Shown here: positions 41,042 through 48,349 of the stretch, piece after piece
How positions within the stretch are numbered: the first letter of the stretch is position 1
How the letters are laid out: each line of letters begins with the position of its first letter
Assembly (NCBI GenBank): GCA_024743215.1
Contig: JANSWZ010000003.1
Location: forward strand, 186,001 to 250,000
Direction of reading: 5' to 3'
Origin: Alphaproteobacteria bacterium
GTDB taxonomy: Bacteria; Pseudomonadota; Alphaproteobacteria; Rhizobiales; GCA-2746425
Length of the DNA stretch: 64,000 bases
Position numbers and translations under genes: made by a program
The notes under the pieces: generated by a model
The model's database searches: none
What the model saw: only the letters and a program-made list of their open reading frames with translations
Told to the model about the DNA's origin: nothing

Positions 41042-41224
41042 TGCCATCAAGGGAACTCGCGCAGGGTCTGTGCTTTTTCGAGCTGACCCACGCCGATCCA
41101 GCAAATCACACCGAGCAGCAGATCAATGAATGTCTACGAACGTTCTCCATCGTATGATCAAAAGGAAAGTGCTTTTTTGGGCCGCATCTCTATGATCGGG
41201 CAGCAACAGGGAGACACCGCAAAG

Positions 41225-41698
41225 ATGGAACTCGATCCACAATGGGAATATGTAGCTGATACTGTCATGGGTGGTGTGTCTGAAGGCGGCGTGCAGCAAG
41301 AGATGTATCGCGGTCGTATGGCCACCGTCTTGCGCGGCGCGGTCTCGCTGGAAAACAATGGTGGCTTTATCCAGATCGCGTTTGATATTCGCCCGGATGG
41401 AACGGGCGTCGATGCACGTGATTGGGATGGCATTGCGTTGGTCAATTGCGGCAATGGCGAGCGCTATGACATCCGCCTGCGGACAGACCAACTGAGCCGT
41501 CCATGGCAATCCTTTCGCACAGAGTTCACTGCCGAAGCCGAATGGCGGACACAGCGGATCCCGTTTGCAACGTTCGTTTCACACAGAACCGATGCCCTCT
41601 TTGATGCCTCACAGCTCAGGCGGATCGGCGTTCTGGCCATAGGCCGAGAGTTTCAGGCGGAACTGGCAGTTGCAGGCATTTGCTTCTATCGCGATTAG
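41225..41698 (+). CDS. CIA30-family protein (complex I intermediate-associated)
   Basis: 157 residues from the ATG at 41225. The N-terminus WEYVADTVMGGVSEG and DWDGIALVNCGNGERYDIRLR are typical of the CIA30/galactose-binding-like family, which in mitochondria assists complex I assembly; bacterial roles are unknown. In-frame ATGs at 41126 and 41192 would add up to 33 residues, but the family usually begins close to the WxxVxDTVMGGVS motif. The gene is followed 40 bp later by a DUF2805 gene. Confidence 0.82.
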   Translation: MELDPQWEYVADTVMGGVSEGGVQQEMYRGRMATVLRGAVSLENNGGFIQIAFDIRPDGTGVDARDWDGIALVNCGNGERYDIRLRTDQLSRPWQSFRTEFTAEAEWRTQRIPFATFVSHRTDALFDASQLRRIGVLAIGREFQAELAVAGICFYRD

Positions 41699-41738
41699 TT
41701 TTCTTGCCTTGAGGACTTGTTCCGCTATTTCCAAAGCC

Positions 41739-41954
41739 ATGAGCAAAGCAAAAAACCTCCCTTCAGAACATCTCAGCGAGATTGTACAAATGGCGTTGTC
41801 GGATCATGTCAGTTTCGCTGATATTGAACGTGAATACGGGATTCGCGAGAAGGACGTAAAGGCCGTGATGCGCTACACACTCAAGACCGGTAGCTACAAA
41901 GCCTGGCGGAAGCGTGTGCGCGACTTCGGAAGTCGGCGGGCGCATTACAAATAA
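41739..41954 (+). CDS. DUF2805 / TIGR03643-family protein
   Basis: 71 residues. LSEIVQMALSDHVSFADIE, REKDVKAVMR and SYKAWRKRVRDFGSRRAHY match a small conserved family of unknown function that looks like a helix-turn-helix-type domain. The ATG at 41739 gives the expected length. It often accompanies CIA30-like genes, as it does here. Confidence 0.8.
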   Translation: MSKAKNLPSEHLSEIVQMALSDHVSFADIEREYGIREKDVKAVMRYTLKTGSYKAWRKRVRDFGSRRAHYK

Positions 41955-42171
41955 TCTGTTGTCGCAACTGTGTGCTTGGAAAACGGCTCTTTGCTGTCGT
42001 TCATCCCAAATGAGTTTGGAATGTTAGATTTCTTCAAGCCAGACATCCATGTCTTTAGCAAACAAAACGGCATGTCAGGCCGGCGCTGCATATAGGCAGT
42101 ATGAAAACTCGAAATTTGGCGGAGTTGTGATTGAATGTGAAATGATCACTATTGGTTAATTGGACGAGCAA

Positions 42172-42621
42172 TCAGGATGTCGTTTCAATCCCGACAGTTT
42201 TCTGGAGCAGTGCGACTACGTCTTTACGCTCTTTCAATGTTAGGCGCTTCAAATGCAGTTCGTTGGTCTCAGCAATGATTTTCGGTAGCTGCGCAGCCTT
42301 TTTGCGCCCTTTTTCCGTTAAGTAGATGAGAAATGACCGGCGACTGTTGGGATCAGGTCGCCGTTCGGCAAACCCAGCCTTAACGAGAGCGTCGACGTTA
42401 CGGCTTGTGTAGTATTCAGGAAAATCCAGCTTCTTACCAAGTTGCCTTTGATTGACGCCATCAGCTTCATAGAGAAGCATCAGGTTTGCGAAAATTTTGA
42501 CGTCAATATCAACTTCTTTAAGCCGTTCGCGCATCGTAACGTCGAGCCGACGCCCAAGAGTTTGGATCAAAAAGCCAAAACTACTCTCGCGATTTTTTTG
42601 TCCCCTTGAGATTTGGGCCAT
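42172..42621 (-). CDS. MarR-family transcriptional regulator
   Basis: 149 residues with the MarR winged-helix core: VNQRQLGKKLDFPEYYTSRNVDALVKAGF (about 56-84) and the wing RRPDPNSRRSFLIYLTEKGR. The ATG at 42621 or 42642 may be used. It is divergent from the EF-hand/flavocytochrome operon, the usual position of a MarR repressor relative to its target. The shared region holds TTGCAA repeats and a TACAA-TGC-TTGTA inverted repeat. Ligand unknown; MarR proteins often respond to phenolics or oxidants. Confidence 0.9.
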   Translation of the reverse strand: MAQISRGQKNRESSFGFLIQTLGRRLDVTMRERLKEVDIDVKIFANLMLLYEADGVNQRQLGKKLDFPEYYTSRNVDALVKAGFAERRPDPNSRRSFLIYLTEKGRKKAAQLPKIIAETNELHLKRLTLKERKDVVALLQKTVGIETTS

Positions 42622-42659
42622 CGAATAACAACTCCACATCACTCAGATAGCTCCATCGC

Positions 42660-42713
42660 TTGCAATTTGCAACTGTTGCATAATTATTGCATTTACAATG
42701 CTTGTATTTGCAA
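42660..42713. promoter_or_regulatory. MarR-associated operator region
   Basis: TTGCAA occurs at 42660-42665, 42667-42672 and 42708-42713, with TTGCAT/TTGCA at 42676 and 42687. TACAA (42694-42698) and TTGTA (42702-42706) form an inverted repeat around TGC. All lie in the AT-rich space between the divergent MarR gene and the EF-hand gene. MarR binding is inferred. Confidence 0.5.
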
Positions 42714-42768
42714 CTAATGCTGATACAAGTCAAGTCTGACGAATGACCCAACCCGAAAGGTGAGCCCC

Positions 42769-43251
42769 ATGAAAACGAAACTTTCCGCTATCGCACTCGC
42801 ATTGTCGCTTGGTGTAGCAACAACATTGTCTGCCTCAGCTCAAGAAGGCCGCACGCTCGCTGAATTGAGCTTTGATTCCGTGGATGAGCATGAAAAAGGC
42901 TACTTGCATCTTGGGGATATGGAGAGGGTGAGATCGGACATTTTTACATCCATGGATGCAGACGAAAGTAACGGCTTGGAACTCTCTGAATTCATTAATT
43001 GGGGATATGGATTTGAAAACATCGCCGAAGATGAGAATAAATTACTCGCCTACCGCACAGCGTTAAAGGTGGTTTATACATTCTGGGACCGCAACGGCGA
43101 TGGCAAGATTACACCTTCGGAACATCGCCGCGCAGTAAACAATGACTTTTTCCGCGCTGATCTAAACAACAATGCAATTCTCGAAAAAGAAGAATTCCTT
43201 GGTGGATTTTCTATTCTTGTCGCGGTCCGCGCCGCCCTGAAACCTGAATAA
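42769..43251 (+). CDS. exported EF-hand protein
   Basis: 160 residues. A signal peptide ends near SASA-QEG (residue 24-25), so the mature protein is periplasmic. Three EF-hand loops have correctly placed acidic ligands: D63-D65-S67...E74, D107-N109-D111...E118 and D131-N133-N135...E142; a fourth, degenerate site may lie at 36-47. It should bind Ca2+. The ATG at 42769 is preceded by GAAAGGTGAG; a GTG at 42760 lies within that site. It is the first gene of the operon, 25 bp before the flavocytochrome. Confidence 0.88.
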   Translation: MKTKLSAIALALSLGVATTLSASAQEGRTLAELSFDSVDEHEKGYLHLGDMERVRSDIFTSMDADESNGLELSEFINWGYGFENIAEDENKLLAYRTALKVVYTFWDRNGDGKITPSEHRRAVNNDFFRADLNNNAILEKEEFLGGFSILVAVRAALKPE

Positions 43252-43276
43252 ATAGACCCAATTTTTGAGGAACTCC

Positions 43277-44539
43277 ATGATGCTAAAACGTCAAGGAATA
43301 ATGCTAATTCTCGCTTTGTTGGCGACTTTCATCGGCCTGCATTTTGCTTTTGCGCCCAAGGCACACGATCCGCGAACTACCGGTACGACCATGCTTGGTG
43401 GGGTCGCATTTTTACTGATAACTTCGTCAGTTGTTCTCTCTACCCGTCTTGCTGTCTTTGAAGAATGGTTCGGCGGACTTGATCGTATGTATCAAGTCCA
43501 CAAGGTCGCAGGTGTCGTAGCGCTCATATTTGTGCTGGTTCATTTTTTTGGTGTGCCAAAAGAACTGCCAGCCGGAACCGATCCTGCGCTTAACCCACTG
43601 GTGCCATCTGCTCCACTTGGTATGATCGCATTGGCCTTATTGGTGATCGGCCTGGCGCTGACACTAAACCGGCGCATCTCCTATAACCGATGGCGGCCTA
43701 CGCACCGAGTGATGGGACTGGTCTATGTTTTGATTGTTGGTCATTTCATGACCGCGCCAGCAATCTTCTTTGAGCGATTCAGCGCTTCGGGGGTTCTATT
43801 GATCGTCGCAGCTGTCATTGGCGTTATTGCCTATCTGTACTCGATATTTGGTATGAATCGAGCGACAGGGAAACGATATCAGATTGAGACCGTGAATGCC
43901 TTGGAGCGGGCAACCGAGATTGTGCTTAAACCGATAGGTGATGCAATCACGCATAAGCCCGGGCAGTTTGCATTTATTGAATTGCAAGGAAAGGGTTGGC
44001 GCGAACCGCATCCATTTACGATCTCCAGTGAGCCGGGTGCTGAACGTCTAAAGTTTACAATCAAGGTTCTTGGCGACTGGACACGAAAGGTTCGTGAGGA
44101 GCTTTCTGCCGGGGGCGAAGTAATCGTACGTGGGCCATATGGCCGGTTTGATATGTCAAAGGGTGGGGACAAGCAAATTTGGCTTGCAGGCGGCATTGGC
44201 CTAACCCCGTTCCTGTCGTCGGTTCGCGCAATGGAGAAGGGCGATAGCCGCCAAATTCATCTAGTTTACGCCGCACGCGAAGAAAAAGACGCCGTCTTCC
44301 TGGAAGAGCTAAAGCACCGCGCAAATCAACTTGGAAATGTGACGTTAGTTCCACTGTTCTCTCAGGATGGGAATTTTGCGCGCGTGGATATTATGAAAAC
44401 CAAGTTGCCCGACCCGCTTTCGACATATGATTATTTCCTCTGCGGTCCGAAGCCAATGGTGGAAGGCCTGGTCCATGACCTGCGAAATCAAGGCGTAAAC
44501 CGCTCACAAATTCATACTGAAGCGTTTGAGTTCAGATAA
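43277..44539 (+). CDS. NOX/ferric-reductase-like transmembrane flavocytochrome
   Basis: 420 residues. About six membrane helices carry two histidine pairs, H75/H89 and H143/H156, with the 12-13-residue spacing of a bis-heme ferric reductase domain. A dehydrogenase domain follows: FAD motif HPFTIS (245-250), GPYGRF, the NAD(P) site AGGIGLTPFLS (304-314), CGPKPM (389-394) and a C-terminus rich in aromatic residues. Electrons would pass from cytoplasmic NAD(P)H across the membrane to a periplasmic acceptor such as oxygen, Fe3+ or a quinone. The ATG at 43277 follows GAGGAA. It is second in the operon, after the EF-hand gene. Confidence 0.9.
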   Translation: MMLKRQGIMLILALLATFIGLHFAFAPKAHDPRTTGTTMLGGVAFLLITSSVVLSTRLAVFEEWFGGLDRMYQVHKVAGVVALIFVLVHFFGVPKELPAGTDPALNPLVPSAPLGMIALALLVIGLALTLNRRISYNRWRPTHRVMGLVYVLIVGHFMTAPAIFFERFSASGVLLIVAAVIGVIAYLYSIFGMNRATGKRYQIETVNALERATEIVLKPIGDAITHKPGQFAFIELQGKGWREPHPFTISSEPGAERLKFTIKVLGDWTRKVREELSAGGEVIVRGPYGRFDMSKGGDKQIWLAGGIGLTPFLSSVRAMEKGDSRQIHLVYAAREEKDAVFLEELKHRANQLGNVTLVPLFSQDGNFARVDIMKTKLPDPLSTYDYFLCGPKPMVEGLVHDLRNQGVNRSQIHTEAFEFR

Positions 44540-44542
44540 GCC

Positions 44543-45010
44543 ATGCGTCACCTACATAAACCTCTGGAGTTGGTTGCGCTGCTATTTGGCGCAATCACAT
44601 TTGGGACAGCCTACTATCTTCTGTTTCTTTCCCATCCAGCGTGGATGGCAGTTCCATTTGAACACTTCATTCCCGTATTCCGTGAGATGATATTAAGCAT
44701 TGGCGCTAGCCAGATCATCGTATCCAACATCGCGCTCGCCGCGTGTGTCATACTTTTCTTTTGGTCAAAAGATTGGTTTTGGCTGCTCGCAGTCGTGTGC
44801 TTGTTGTTATCGCTGCCGGTAACGATGTGGCAGCTTATGCCGATCAATTTTCACTTCCTTGAGGCAGCAGAACCAGCGCTTAGCCAAGGTGCTGCAGACA
44901 AGCTCTCGGAATGGGGAAACTACCAAATTATTCGATTCATCGGCGATGGTTTCGCCTTTGCATCAATGTGCAAACCTGTGCTTTGGCGCAAAAAATCCAA
45001 GGATCAATAG
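44543..45010 (+). CDS. integral membrane protein, possibly DUF1772-like
   Basis: 155 residues with four predicted helices. The segment WQLMPINFHFLE followed by W...IRFIGDGFAF loosely resembles the lPxN...W...R pattern of DUF1772 (anthrone-oxygenase-like) proteins, though the match is weak. It starts 3 bp after the flavocytochrome stop, so the two are coupled. Function is unknown. Confidence 0.72.
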   Translation: MRHLHKPLELVALLFGAITFGTAYYLLFLSHPAWMAVPFEHFIPVFREMILSIGASQIIVSNIALAACVILFFWSKDWFWLLAVVCLLLSLPVTMWQLMPINFHFLEAAEPALSQGAADKLSEWGNYQIIRFIGDGFAFASMCKPVLWRKKSKDQ

Positions 45011-45011
45011 A

Positions 45012-45431
45012 ATGAAAAATGCACCATTTTCGATCACACCAATACTCTTCGGCGTGTTGATCGTCGCTGCAATCACAGGAGCACTTGTATCAACCTTGGT
45101 TGGGGGATTTGGTATCGGCGGCTGGCTTGGATTTTTTCTTGCTGGCTTTGTTCCTATTCCCGTCGGCGGTTTGGTGCGATCAATGTTGGCCGCATCACTT
45201 GGTTCAGCCCAAGATATTCATGACGATGTACCAACGGCTGGCCCGCTGCTAACACGACTGATCATTGCTGCAGTTATCGCCGCCATTTTCGGATTGCTTT
45301 TCTCACTTCTGGGGGACGCATTTCCATTTGGCGCGCTTGCAGGCGCAGTAGCGGGACTTGTCACATCCATGACCGCCGCCGTCATATTTTCGATCATGCT
45401 TTCAACACGGGTCCAAGGAGACAAGATATGA
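45012..45431 (+). CDS. small integral membrane protein, glycine-rich
   Basis: 139 residues, four predicted helices with a Gly/Ala-rich character (GGFGIGGWLGFFLAG; GALAGAVAGLV). The ATG at 45012 lies 1 bp after the previous stop; the open frame upstream of it overlaps the preceding gene and is not used. No family recognised with confidence; DUF2798-like small membrane proteins are a possibility. Confidence 0.7.
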   Translation: MKNAPFSITPILFGVLIVAAITGALVSTLVGGFGIGGWLGFFLAGFVPIPVGGLVRSMLAASLGSAQDIHDDVPTAGPLLTRLIIAAVIAAIFGLLFSLLGDAFPFGALAGAVAGLVTSMTAAVIFSIMLSTRVQGDKI

Positions 45432-45619
45432 AAACTCCCTACGTATTCGCTGCTGTTCAAGGCATAACGGCAAGTGTTATTGGTTGGGCAGGCATCGTTG
45501 CTGCTCTCGTGATGGGACACGGAACCTGGCAAATCATTCTTGCCTGTGTAGCGGTTAGCTTCATCGTCGCTTTTCCAATTGCGTCAGTCATTACGAAACG
45601 CATGACCGGGAATTCATAG
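45428..45619 (+). CDS. small two-helix membrane protein
   Basis: 63 residues, two hydrophobic helices ending in ASVITKRMTGN, a pattern reminiscent of DUF2798 proteins. It overlaps the previous stop by 4 bp (ATGA), so it is translationally coupled. Function unknown. Confidence 0.68.
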   Translation: MKTPYVFAAVQGITASVIGWAGIVAALVMGHGTWQIILACVAVSFIVAFPIASVITKRMTGNS

Positions 45620-45622
45620 GCG

Positions 45623-46105
45623 ATGATGAAACGGGCAATCGAATTTCTGCATGACATCGCCAACATATTTTATGTCGGCGGCATCCTTTCGCACATCGTA
45701 ATCGGAATTCTGTTTGCGCATTCATCACCAGAAGTTTTGGTAACCGTTTACACGTACAAACTTCAGAGTGCTTACATTTTGATCCTCTCGGGGCTAACGC
45801 TCAAAATCGTAACCGACCTGATACTGTTTTTCCTTTACGCCGAGCGCGCGTGGTGGATGCGGGTCAAACTCGCTGCGACGACATTCCTGTCAATCAACGC
45901 ATTTGTATTCCTTGTGCCGATGATGCCTGAATTGCTGGCATTGGCTAAAGCCTCTGTAGGCCAAGCTAAAGTCAGTCAAGCTTTCATGGATCTTGAGGCA
46001 ACCGAACAACTCGTTGGTATGTCGAACGTGATCCCTCTCATAACTGAATTGGTGATGGGTGGCTTTAAACCGAGGCTTTCGAAAACCGAACGCGATGTAA
46101 AATGA
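45623..46105 (+). CDS. integral membrane protein of unknown function
   Basis: 160 residues with four predicted helices. LHDIANIFYVGGILSHIVIG at the N-terminus and KLAATTFLSINAFVFLVPMM in the third helix are the most distinctive segments; DUF2269-like membrane proteins are loosely similar. It begins 3 bp after the preceding stop. There are no obvious catalytic or metal-binding motifs. Confidence 0.7.
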   Translation: MMKRAIEFLHDIANIFYVGGILSHIVIGILFAHSSPEVLVTVYTYKLQSAYILILSGLTLKIVTDLILFFLYAERAWWMRVKLAATTFLSINAFVFLVPMMPELLALAKASVGQAKVSQAFMDLEATEQLVGMSNVIPLITELVMGGFKPRLSKTERDVK

Positions 46106-46326
46106 GGATCATCTGGAACAAGTTCACCCAGTTTAATCCCATCCTTATTTTGCTAGCCGGTCTTCTGTTTCAATCCTGCGGCATGGTCGCATTTGGCATC
46201 ATTTGTTACGTCGTCTTTGCAATTCACATTTACCGCATCTTGTTTAACTGGGTTCGTTTGAACGCTATTTTAGCAATGGAGGCCAAAGCATGGTCGTGTT
46301 CTTGGGATTCAGATGATGAACGTTAG
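46102..46326 (+). CDS. very small membrane protein
   Basis: 74 residues, with one or two helices (FNPILILLAGLLFQSCG, FGIICYVVFAIHIYRIL). It overlaps the preceding stop by 4 bp and the following gene by 14 bp. The tight packing supports it as a real gene despite its size. No homologue is recognised. Confidence 0.6.
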   Translation: MRIIWNKFTQFNPILILLAGLLFQSCGMVAFGIICYVVFAIHIYRILFNWVRLNAILAMEAKAWSCSWDSDDER

Positions 46327-46825
46327 AACCGTGGCGACAATTTCGGCAATAGTTTTGTCTGGTGGTCTGTTTGGCTTCTTCTTCACCATGCAGTTCTCGA
46401 TCATGCCGGGCTTGGATTTAACAGAGCCATATTCCGCATTGTTGGCAAACATGATGATTGGCCGTGCAACCCAAAGCTCATATCTTATTGTTTTGTTGTT
46501 GGGCACGCCAGTCACGCTAGGCGTAGCAATGGCGCTTTCCATGCGAACATTGGAAAGAGATGGGATCAGCTATCTGGGTTCAGCACTGCTTTCGTGGATG
46601 GCAATGCTCGCCGTCACACTTTTCTTTAATGTGCCACTAAATCAAGTTCTTGATGGGCTCATACTTACACCTGATATGGCTGACGCGACCGAACGATGGG
46701 CGGCCTATTCGCAAGAGTGGCAGCAGTGGAACTTGGCAAGGGTGCTCTTCAGCGTTCTCTCTTCGGTGTTCGCTGTGCTGGCGCTGATACGGCAGCGAAA
46801 AAACTTGCAGATTGTGTTGCGTTGA
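46313..46825 (+). CDS. DUF1772-family integral membrane protein
   Basis: 170 residues with four helices. NVPLNQVLDGL and WAAYSQEWQQWNLARVLFS give the N-x-P-x-N ... W-x-x-Y-x-x-x-W-x-x-W-N-x-x-R signature of DUF1772, a family that includes anthrone-oxygenase-like proteins acting on aromatic polyketides. It is the last gene of the operon and begins inside the preceding gene. A possible terminator follows at 46910. Confidence 0.82.
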   Translation: MMNVRTVATISAIVLSGGLFGFFFTMQFSIMPGLDLTEPYSALLANMMIGRATQSSYLIVLLLGTPVTLGVAMALSMRTLERDGISYLGSALLSWMAMLAVTLFFNVPLNQVLDGLILTPDMADATERWAAYSQEWQQWNLARVLFSVLSSVFAVLALIRQRKNLQIVLR

Positions 46826-46909
46826 TAGATTGAATCCACCGGACAAACCGGACATTGGAACGGTTCGCAGCAGACATCATCTCCCGCCCCAAACGACACT
46901 CCAAAACCC

Positions 46910-46926
46910 AACCCATTTTCTGGGTT
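46910..46926 (+). terminator. possible terminator at the end of the EF-hand/flavocytochrome operon
   Basis: AACCCA/TGGGTT stem around TTTTC, followed by TCGCGTTTTA. The stem is short and the T-run is interrupted, so this is a weak call. It could also serve the convergent GST gene. Confidence 0.4.
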
Positions 46927-46954
46927 TCGCGTTTTATCCCGTAGCTTTAGTCAT

Positions 46955-47545
46955 TTAAAAAGCGGGAACCAGAGCTTGAAAGCTGCCGAGCCATGCCACC
47001 AGGCCTGGATGCGTCTGGCGCCACTTGCCTTCAAACCGCAGATCCAGATAGCTCAGCGCGCAGGCCAATGCGACGTGACCGAGTTGGATGTCATCAGCTG
47101 TATTCAAAATTGGCGGTGCCGCTTCCAGGGTTTTCAAGCCGCGTGCAATCTTGTCTGCCTGATACGCCATGCGCTCTGCAGATTGTTGCTCTGCTGGCCT
47201 GAAGCGTGTTTCGTAGACGTTCATTACCGCTGCATCGGTGATGCCGCCGGCAAGCGCATGAAGGGTGAGGGCGGGAAATCTTGCTTCCCCCTTTGGGACC
47301 AGCTTTGCCCCACCTGCGATAAAGTCCAGATATTCCAGAATGACGCGGCTGTCATAAATGGCCATGCCGTCTTCATTTATCAGGACAGGGATTTTTCCCA
47401 GTGGGTTCTGTTGGCGCACAGTGTCTTGAGGATCGTTCAGATCGACATCTTCAACGTGTATGCGATCAGACAGTTGCAGAATACCGGCTGCCACCTGAAT
47501 CTGGCGGCCAAAGGGCGATGACGGGGAGGTGCGCAGAATCATCAT
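46955..47545 (-). CDS. glutathione S-transferase family protein
   Basis: 196 residues. The N-terminal thioredoxin-like domain has SPFGRQIQVAAG with the candidate active-site serine, NPLGKIPVLI with the cis-proline, and YDSRVILEYLD for the gamma-glutamyl contact. An all-helical C-terminal domain follows. It conjugates or otherwise uses glutathione in the cytoplasm; the second substrate is unknown. It is convergent with the DUF1772 operon. Confidence 0.92.
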   Translation of the reverse strand: MMILRTSPSSPFGRQIQVAAGILQLSDRIHVEDVDLNDPQDTVRQQNPLGKIPVLINEDGMAIYDSRVILEYLDFIAGGAKLVPKGEARFPALTLHALAGGITDAAVMNVYETRFRPAEQQSAERMAYQADKIARGLKTLEAAPPILNTADDIQLGHVALACALSYLDLRFEGKWRQTHPGLVAWLGSFQALVPAF

Positions 47546-47740
47546 GACTTAGTCTCCTTGGTTTGAAGGCACGTTTGGCAGGTCCTCCGGTTTGTTTCCA
47601 ATTCAAAGTTTCGATGAATGGCACTGCGTCGTTCATGAAGCTCTGCTCACAGTTTTGTCATCCTGATTGCCGCGATTATGTCCTAAAGTCGCGCAATTGA
47701 GTCCAGATCCTGGACTTTTCGCTACAGGACGTTTCCGCGC

Positions 47741-48349
47741 ATGATGAGCCAGACACATGTTTTGTTGAGTGCTGCTGCGTTCACCAAACCCGGCGCGCCG
47801 CTTCGCAATTGCGCTGCCCTTCTGGGTGCTGTTCTTCCAGATGCTTCGATCTATGTGATGCTTGGCATCATGCGGTTTCAAGGGGTTGAGCAGCGCCGGA
47901 TCTGGGGCGAGATTTATTGGCAGGAACCGTGGCAGTTTTTCAGCGCTGCTTCCAATTCGGTTCCGCTTTTTCTGAGTGTTTTCGTGATCGGCCTTATGTT
48001 GCAACGATTTGCCAAAACCCCGGCTTTGGAATTTACCAGCGTGTTTCTGGCGGGGCTTGGCCTGTCTGCCCTGCTGCATCTGGCATTTGATTTTCCGGTT
48101 CATGCAGATGATGCACACCGTCATTTCTGGCCGATCACGGATTGGCGGTTCTTTTCACCGCTGTCTTACTGGGACAGCCGCCATTTTGGCGATTACGTTC
48201 GCCTGTTTGAAGGGCTGATCGGTATTGCCGTGTCGATTATCCTGCTGCGTCGGTTCAAGCAGCTTTGGGTCCGTATTGCGGTGGGGCTTGCTTTGGCATC
48301 CTATCTTCTGGTGCCAGCATTTTTCATCTGGTCGATGTCGACTGGATAG
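47741..48349 (+). CDS. integral membrane protein, YdjM/DUF457-like
   Basis: 202 residues with about four helices. Conserved polar residues inside the membrane part, QTH at the N-terminus, GAVLPDAS, and the HLAFDFPVHADDAHRHFWP block, match the YdjM-like family annotated as membrane-bound metal-dependent hydrolases. Metal binding by these His and Asp residues is likely; the substrate is unknown. The next ATG, at 47744, is an alternative start. Confidence 0.68.
   Translation: MMSQTHVLLSAAAFTKPGAPLRNCAALLGAVLPDASIYVMLGIMRFQGVEQRRIWGEIYWQEPWQFFSAASNSVPLFLSVFVIGLMLQRFAKTPALEFTSVFLAGLGLSALLHLAFDFPVHADDAHRHFWPITDWRFFSPLSYWDSRHFGDYVRLFEGLIGIAVSIILLRRFKQLWVRIAVGLALASYLLVPAFFIWSMSTG

Follow-up and report, generated by a model that had tools for sequence, protein, structure and literature searches.

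Introduction

The EF-hands of the calcium-regulated oxidase NOX5 are cytosolic. Its bacterial relative SpNOX is constitutively active, its cellular role being given as undetermined (PMC11031084), and for LcoA, a membrane cytochrome b561 whose gene adjoins that of the exported lipocalin BcnA, either a quinone or a peroxyl radical has been proposed as the acceptor (PMC9113575). Some MNIO gene clusters contain Anthrone_oxy and ferric-reductase-type genes (PMC12452194). Here we describe a locus at positions 42172-46825 of a 64,000-nucleotide stretch of DNA from an alphaproteobacterium of the Rhizobiales (assembly GCA_024743215.1, contig JANSWZ010000003.1, positions 186,001 to 250,000; hereafter the window), in which a divergent MarR-family gene faces a row of eight genes, the first two encoding an exported EF-hand protein and a NOX-like flavocytochrome. 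The component parts of this locus are known; the pairing of an EF-hand protein with a diheme cytochrome was not found described in the literature searched, most subscription papers being outside the reach of that search.

Results

Pfam analysis of the flavocytochrome identified a diheme membrane domain of the ferric-reductase type together with an FAD/NAD(P)H dehydrogenase domain. The best solved relative was SpNOX (8qt6; phmmer, E 1.5e-45, residues 34-419), and this near-full-length match agrees with the SpNOX-like layout suggested in the initial annotation, whose individual claims (420 residues, H75/H89 and H143/H156, HPFTI and GIGLTP) were all found to be correct. By published filters (PMC5676040), the bis-histidine pairs H75-X13-H89 and H143-X12-H156 fit the His-X12/14-His filter for NOX proteins, and HPFTI at residue 245 matches the NOX FAD motif H[PSA]F[TS][LIMV]. 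The six hydrophobic segments, counted by simple hydropathy rather than TMHMM, lie within the NOX range of 3 to 7 helices. The GIGLTP motif (GIGLTP or GVGLTP in the relatives L037-L039) carries at one position a Leu outside the published NOX set, a filter that the relatives L006 and L118 pass; we therefore call the window protein NOX-like and do not file it as a NOX. The presence of FAD_binding_8 and NAD_binding_1 sets it apart from YedZ/MsrQ-type proteins, which have the ferric-reductase domain only, and it is not of the NOX5 type, as the EF-hands are encoded by a separate gene (42769-43251) and not on the NOX-core chain.

The EF-hand protein contains three ligand-complete loops, DADESNGLELSE, DRNGDGKITPSE and DLNNNAILEKEE, beginning at residues 63, 107 and 131, and an N-terminal degenerate loop at residue 39. 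The canonical ligands at positions 1, 3, 5 and 12, present in loops 2-4 of the window protein, were intact in 20/20, 19/20 and 19/20 family members, respectively, and those of the degenerate loop 1 were complete in three of the 20. The Pfam EF-hand_1 match (31 bits, cut-off 25.4) was the sole domain recognised by Pfam. Read by eye, the protein has a signal-peptide-like start, and its mature part is free of Cys; as a separate protein with such a start it is probably periplasmic, and the earlier description of an exported protein with three good loops was thus upheld. A weak resemblance to lanmodulin was detected (NCBIfam, 3.3e-6; solved lanmodulin, 2.1e-7 with the family profile), and membership of that family was ruled out by a score of 27.2 bits against an equivalog cut-off of 135. 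The nearest solved relatives of the family profile were calcium-binding proteins and calmodulin-type sensors.

Relatives of the flavocytochrome were then collected. Among the best 80 of 97 relatives on named genome contigs, the closest were L037 (71%, uncultured Roseobacter), L038 (66%, a Rhodobacteraceae metagenome-assembled genome, MAG) and L039 (66%, a MAG called Dadabacteria). A sample of 297 genomes of the order yielded 34 with a match at 1e-30, including G204 (55%) and G090 (43%), while a class sample of 289 genomes held none of at least 43% besides the window's own; a further full-length member was found in G1047, from another order. These seven full-length proteins (window, L037, L038, L039, G204, G090 and G1047), all with the four heme histidines, form one group with an SH-like approximate likelihood-ratio (SH-aLRT) support of 97 in a quick tree of 57 rows, the 50 others having been chosen from 133 aligned; among the flavocytochromes, the Pfam check covered that of the window. 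In six of the seven, the gene directly preceding the flavocytochrome encodes an EF-hand protein, so that the neighbourhood postulated in the initial annotation does recur elsewhere, and the EF-hand proteins aligned with that of the window are 42-55% identical to it (L157 lay outside this alignment). A divergent MarR gene is found at five of these six loci, all but L038, and occupies the same place and orientation in L037, L006/L117, L118 and L157 (Pfam MarR).

No EF-hand gene was found in the flanks of flavocytochromes outside the clade at any of 20 places checked (flanks of about 1.5 kb for L180-L198 and of 5 kb for L203, four of the places being viewed with 5-kb flanks as well). Besides these 20, two of the 34 flavocytochrome places found were inspected in G1047, a full-length one with an EF-hand gene and a truncated one (L199) without. 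Since the EF-linked flavocytochromes form one group and all 20 others lack an EF-hand gene, a generic housekeeping ferric reductase was ruled out as the sole reading; a grouping with YedZ/MsrQ, contemplated beforehand, is likewise at odds with the dehydrogenase domains. Scanning 116 flavocytochrome loci (36 with flanks of about 1.5 kb or shorter) for EF-loop patterns flagged eight: five pairs, an antisense overlapping open reading frame (ORF) in L081, and L108 and L109, in which a two-loop EF-hand ORF lies 2.4-3 kb upstream of a 28% flavocytochrome relative in Bradyrhizobium-type genomes and which were not counted as pairs.

Within the clade, the loop past the outer-heme histidine differs from that of the other flavocytochromes compared: it reads VPKELPxG in the window protein and those closest to it, with changes in L038 and L007. 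From NOX topology we take this loop to lie on the periplasmic side; shared ancestry alone could explain the difference. L199 (5077-5799; G1047:C1:499076-499768) is a second clade flavocytochrome of G1047 with only its dehydrogenase half in open frame. The source genome encodes a second SpNOX-like flavocytochrome (33%; L119 6500-7864, G000:C3:128520-129755) downstream of an apparent two-component system, and a match similar to it is present in the sister genome G003.

The EF-hand family was also followed on its own account, by alignment searches at 1e-8 for class and phylum samples and at 1e-15 for family f74 (Rhodobacteraceae-like by inference). Matches were obtained in 9/385 class genomes, 11/398 phylum genomes, 14/295 f74 genomes and 3/5 genomes of the genus. 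Besides the window copy, 14 loci were strong (1e-45 or better): a second copy in the source genome and loci in G002, G003, G546, G817, G837, G950, G1001, G1047, G1110, G1177, G1190, G1211 and G1231; the first three belong to the genus of the window, so that the 14 are not all independent. A transmembrane diheme cytochrome adjoins the EF-hand gene at 13 of the 14, namely a cytochrome b561 at 12 and a flavocytochrome at one (G1047). Eleven of the b561 neighbours match PF01292 and the twelfth (G1211) is a fragment cut by an insertion. A divergent MarR gene, in every case with a Pfam MarR match, is present at 11 of the 14; G1190 and G1211 lack an adjacent one, and that of G1001 follows one gene further on. 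The local profiles for MarR, b561 and DUF1772 were built partly from these same loci, a Pfam re-check following for MarR and b561, and the b561 fragment of L163 was assigned by local profile. The EF-hand gene of G1231 has an in-frame stop; it was counted for neighbourhood, its two pieces being scored apart and excluded from the 20-member ligand count. The association of EF-hand protein and cytochrome was seen in five or more families (f1, f16, f51, f74 and f172), which belong to at least two orders.

The EF-hand family thus pairs more often with b561 than with NOX-like proteins and is best said to go with transmembrane diheme cytochromes. As most EF-hand partners accompany b561, a split NOX5 in the strict sense was ruled out. 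In the tree of EF-hand proteins, those with flavocytochrome and those with b561 partners were not cleanly separated (three changes each, of which firm branches force one), and the branches of L144 and L146 were very long. With two long-branch rows excluded, a comparison of 17 members (six with a flavocytochrome, 11 with b561) revealed that residues 119, 123 and 148 differ by partner type, residue 119 being His in 6/6 flavocytochrome partners and Met or Tyr in 11/11 b561 partners. These residues are candidate contact features; ancestry alone could explain them.

Outside the strong loci we recovered five intermediate matches (1e-19 to 1e-28; G519, G810, G1119, G1164 and G1272), a Paracoccus plasmid, ten weak matches (L167-L176) and a second weak match in G318 (L130). 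The ten weak matches have no b561 or MarR gene within 4 kb, and L175 has a weak flavocytochrome-type match. On plasmid p1 of Paracoccus aerodenitrificans the order is MarR, EF-hand, cytochrome b, the EF-hand gene being annotated as a hypothetical protein; the Paracoccus plasmid module further contains a gene with an intradiol-type dioxygenase match (L146 5001-5870; PF00775, 29.3 bits, cut-off 27.3). In three f74 genomes, EF-hand proteins (1e-26 to 1e-28; L164 4863-5465, L165 4992-5609 and L166 4944-5438) are encoded between nuoF-like and nuoG-like genes, the nuoF of L164 and the nuoG of L165 being confirmed by Pfam; such complex I rows again tie EF-hand proteins to electron transfer in the membrane. 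At L163 (3982-5622 onward) an integrase-core gene (Pfam rve) lies, on the side that MarR occupies elsewhere, at an EF-b561 locus whose b561 gene is cut short.

Features of the locus in the window (positions are those of the 64,000-nucleotide stretch)
Feature	Position	Strand	Evidence
MarR-family regulator, divergent from operon	42172..42621	-	Pfam MarR 4.4e-9
MarR/EF-hand intergenic region, putative operators	42622..42768		TTGCAATTTGCAA palindrome and TTGCA/TGCAA boxes
Exported EF-hand protein, 160 aa	42769..43251	+	Pfam EF-hand_1 1.4e-7
NOX-like flavocytochrome, 420 aa	43277..44539	+	Pfam Ferric_reduct, FAD_binding_8 and NAD_binding_1; SpNOX match
DUF1772/Anthrone_oxy-like membrane protein 1	44543..45010	+	Pfam Anthrone_oxy 27.3 bits, exactly the cut-off
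Membrane protein, no Pfam family	45012..45431	+	Hydropathy
63-aa membrane protein, no Pfam family, ATGA overlap with gene before	45428..45619	+	Hydropathy
160-aa membrane protein, no Pfam family	45623..46105	+	70% identical counterpart in L157
74-aa protein, one hydrophobic segment, no Pfam family, ATGA overlap	46102..46326	+	Hydropathy
DUF1772/Anthrone_oxy membrane protein 2	46313..46825	+	Pfam Anthrone_oxy 9.9e-12, 45.4 bits
Segment without counterpart in sister genome G003 (MarR and eight genes)	41994..46866		Matching flanks

The layout of the locus is given in the table. Spacings along the eight-gene row are, in order, 25, 3, 1, -4, 3, -4 and -14 bp, the overlaps comprising two ATGA and one of 14 bp, so that the tight arrangement opposite a divergent MarR gene first described for this DNA (gaps of at most 25 bp, ATGA overlaps) was borne out by the coordinates. 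The MarR gene possibly starts at ATG 42621 and not at an upstream GTG. Six membrane proteins had also been counted beyond the first two genes, and each of the six indeed has one to four hydrophobic segments in a simple hydropathy count. Conservation of the eight genes as a block did not hold: the products of 45012-45431, 45428-45619 and 46102-46326 had no match at the other loci compared, and that of 45623-46105 recurs at no other of them than L157, behind its flavocytochrome. The conserved unit is MarR, EF-hand protein and cytochrome.

The DUF1772-type proteins are likely to be accessory membrane subunits. The first (44543-45010) has a 25% counterpart in L037 and the second (46313-46825) has counterparts of 51% in L037 and 47% in L038. 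The latter reached 46.7 bits with NCBIfam ChrI, far under the cut-off of 275, and was modelled as a four-helix bundle with a predicted local distance difference test (pLDDT) score of 84; the structures that matched it best, with Z values of up to 16, are helical bundles of designed and of soluble proteins and are uninformative on function. By local profile, DUF1772-type genes flank the cytochrome in the window, L037, L038, L039, L140, L141, L159, L160 and L161, and occur with either cytochrome, flavocytochrome or b561; in Pfam, those of the window, L037 and L140 scored at or above the cut-off of 27.3 bits and one L161 gene below it (16 bits), those of L038, L039, L141, L159 and L160 being assigned by the local profile. 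At three loci (L140 4762-5907, L160 2204-3352 and L161 2223-3371) the EF-b561-DUF1772 row is closed by a protein of 381-382 residues with a hydrophobic N-terminal half. That of L140 carries an NAD-binding reductase domain (PF00175, 6e-17), and some b561 versions may therefore be NAD(P)H-fed.

Within the MarR/EF-hand intergenic region, the palindrome TTGCAATTTGCAA lies at 42660-42672. The corresponding regions of the window, L037 and L157 share 62 invariant columns, and TTGCANNNTGCAA as well as additional TTGCA/TGCAA boxes stand at corresponding places in all three. The exact palindrome TTGCANNNTGCAA occurs once in the window, and in a set of 203 loci nothing but copies of these three regions contained it; as the operator pattern was derived from the same three sequences, its absence elsewhere is support and not a test, and one match in the window alone is unremarkable (27/100 shuffles). 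A different palindromic set is common to L140, L141 and L159. The intergenic palindromes are likely to be MarR operators.

The source genome (G000) is 5.09 Mb, and its family is represented by five genomes, all of one genus. Sequences flanking the locus (41118-41993 and 46867-48347) match the sister genome G003 at 86%, and in G003 the 4.16 kb between them contain a pair of ABC-transporter genes (ABC_membrane and ABC_tran by Pfam), which fits the acquisition considered in the initial annotation. The boundaries of the cassette lie 178 bp before and 41 bp after its nine genes. Only the right flank is matched in G002, which is therefore uninformative on the insertion site. The clade flavocytochrome is present in one of the five genus genomes and the EF-b561 version in three. 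As to the AT-richness noted at the outset, the G+C content of the operon (48.7%) is indeed lower than that of two source-genome contigs sampled in 372 overlapping 4-kb stretches (52.9% +/- 1.8); with a z of -2.3 and 3.2% of samples equally low, it is low and not extreme. Given the other genes at the G003 site, the lowish G+C and the close relatives in another order, the simplest explanation is that the cassette was gained or exchanged as a whole, the alternative being that it may have been lost in the sister genome.

Discussion

We propose, with a probability of about 0.5, that the locus is a MarR-controlled envelope redox module that was moved or exchanged as a cassette, its periplasmic Ca2+-binding subunit acting at the outer face of the diheme cytochrome present, be it NOX-like or b561. 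NAD(P)H would give electrons to the FAD of the flavocytochrome in the cytoplasm, and the two membrane hemes, judging from family membership, would carry them to the periplasmic face. The exported EF-hand protein, as a dedicated partner, would bind Ca2+ via loops 2-4, dock on the heme-bearing membrane domain and, once docked, switch or modulate the flow of electrons to an acceptor, candidates for which are O2 (as for SpNOX), a quinone, a periplasmic oxidant, a peroxyl radical or a metal. Quinol would feed the b561 versions, or at three loci possibly a separate NAD-binding membrane protein encoded in the row. Apart from a transmembrane diheme bundle with its outer heme, NOX-like proteins and b561 have little in common, and this bundle is therefore the likely contact site. 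Since two cytochrome families, both with a transmembrane pair of hemes, have retained the EF-hand protein, and since it has intact Ca2+ ligands in loops 2-4 and no evident redox centre, we infer a periplasmic Ca2+-binding partner of the outer face. The data establish the genetic unit and its conservation, the conserved ligands and the different genes at this site in the sister genome; the docking, the control by Ca2+, the acceptor and the inducer are part of the proposal. A bolder form, in which the separate periplasmic sensor, facing outward and not towards the cytoplasm, would be an adaptor plugged into two unrelated diheme cytochromes and would place electron export under calcium control, is put forward tentatively.

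Several observations weigh against this proposal. The EF-hand gene of G1190 (L162) has no cytochrome, L039 is a clade cytochrome with a DUF1772 gene in the place of the EF-hand gene, the truncated clade member L199 lacks an EF-hand gene, and L038 has no divergent MarR. Among the five intermediate EF-hand matches only G519 has both b561 and MarR, G810 having neither and the other three standing in complex I rows. The identities of EF-hand protein and cytochrome do not run in parallel (44% and 71%, respectively, in L037). As regards the difference at residue 119, two of the three complex-I-linked relatives have His there too, so that it may be ancestral. Lastly, the structure model of the EF-hand protein, with a pLDDT of 61, was too poor for fold comparison; Foldseek reached an E of 0.1 at best, with EF-hand proteins in the 50 rows listed.

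The presence of MarR regulators at most loci, the recurrence of Anthrone_oxy relatives and the additional gene with a low-scoring dioxygenase match at the Paracoccus locus would also suit an envelope detoxification reductase, in which MarR senses a quinone, phenol or oxidant that the cytochrome reduces at the membrane surface, and the EF-hand protein is structural or substrate-presenting with Ca2+ serving folding and not signalling. BcnA-LcoA follows the same gene logic of an exported partner and a b561 (PMC9113575). We regard this as possible, if somewhat doubtful: the mature EF-hand protein has neither Cys nor another recognised domain, and the retention of three complete loops by almost every member suggests a role for Ca2+ that goes further than folding. 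The ferric-reductase type of the membrane domain and the weak lanmodulin match might instead point to a metal reductase acting on Fe3+, Cu2+ or another cation captured by the EF-hand protein, which we consider improbable because the loops resemble ordinary calcium loops, the best solved profile relatives are of the calcium-binding and calmodulin type, and Pfam recognised no metal-uptake gene among the nine. That the EF-hand protein buffers periplasmic Ca2+ in general, independently of the cytochrome and as the product of one of several unrelated stress genes under one regulator, would account for the ten weaker loci away from b561 and MarR; it is very improbable in view of an association that persists when the cytochrome family changes and that recurs in five or more families from at least two orders, and of the lack of EF-hand genes beside all 20 outside-clade flavocytochromes checked.

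If the proposed calcium-binding module is real, it would offer a testable control mechanism for bacterial electron leak and a handle on the natural acceptors, provide a bacterial parallel to the calcium-regulated NOX5 and DUOX reached by a different route, and assign a function to an exported EF-hand family of which one member is annotated only as hypothetical.

Comparison with known systems

Like the window protein, EfhP and the EF-hand proteins of MNIO-bufferin systems (PMC12452194) are bacterial EF-hand proteins with export signals; the MNIO systems differ in that none of the nine cassette genes matches MNIO in Pfam and the mature EF-hand protein lacks Cys. MsrPQ (PMC5676040, PMC11031084) also unites a diheme membrane protein with a periplasmic partner; MsrP, however, is a molybdopterin-containing electron acceptor, whereas the EF-hand sequence shows no redox centre, and MsrQ, a short form, lacks the dehydrogenase domain found in the window flavocytochrome. 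In BcnA-LcoA (PMC9113575) the gene of an exported protein adjoins that of a membrane b561 as a conserved pair, as at the EF-hand loci, but the partner is a lipocalin, whereas that of the window matches EF-hand models only (Pfam), and the accessible text makes no mention of MarR and describes no exchange for a NOX-like protein. SpNOX-like proteins (PMC5676040, PMC11031084) have the diheme domain, the FAD and NAD domains and the bis-histidine spacing in common with the window protein; no partner of SpNOX is described in the accessible parts of these sources, whereas in the window an exported EF-hand protein, MarR and DUF1772 genes accompany the cytochrome. NOX5/DUOX and the cyanobacterial NOX5-like AM1_3152 combine EF-hands with a NOX core, as the window does, yet they carry the EF-hands on the same polypeptide, whereas those of the window are on a separate protein (PMC3591440).

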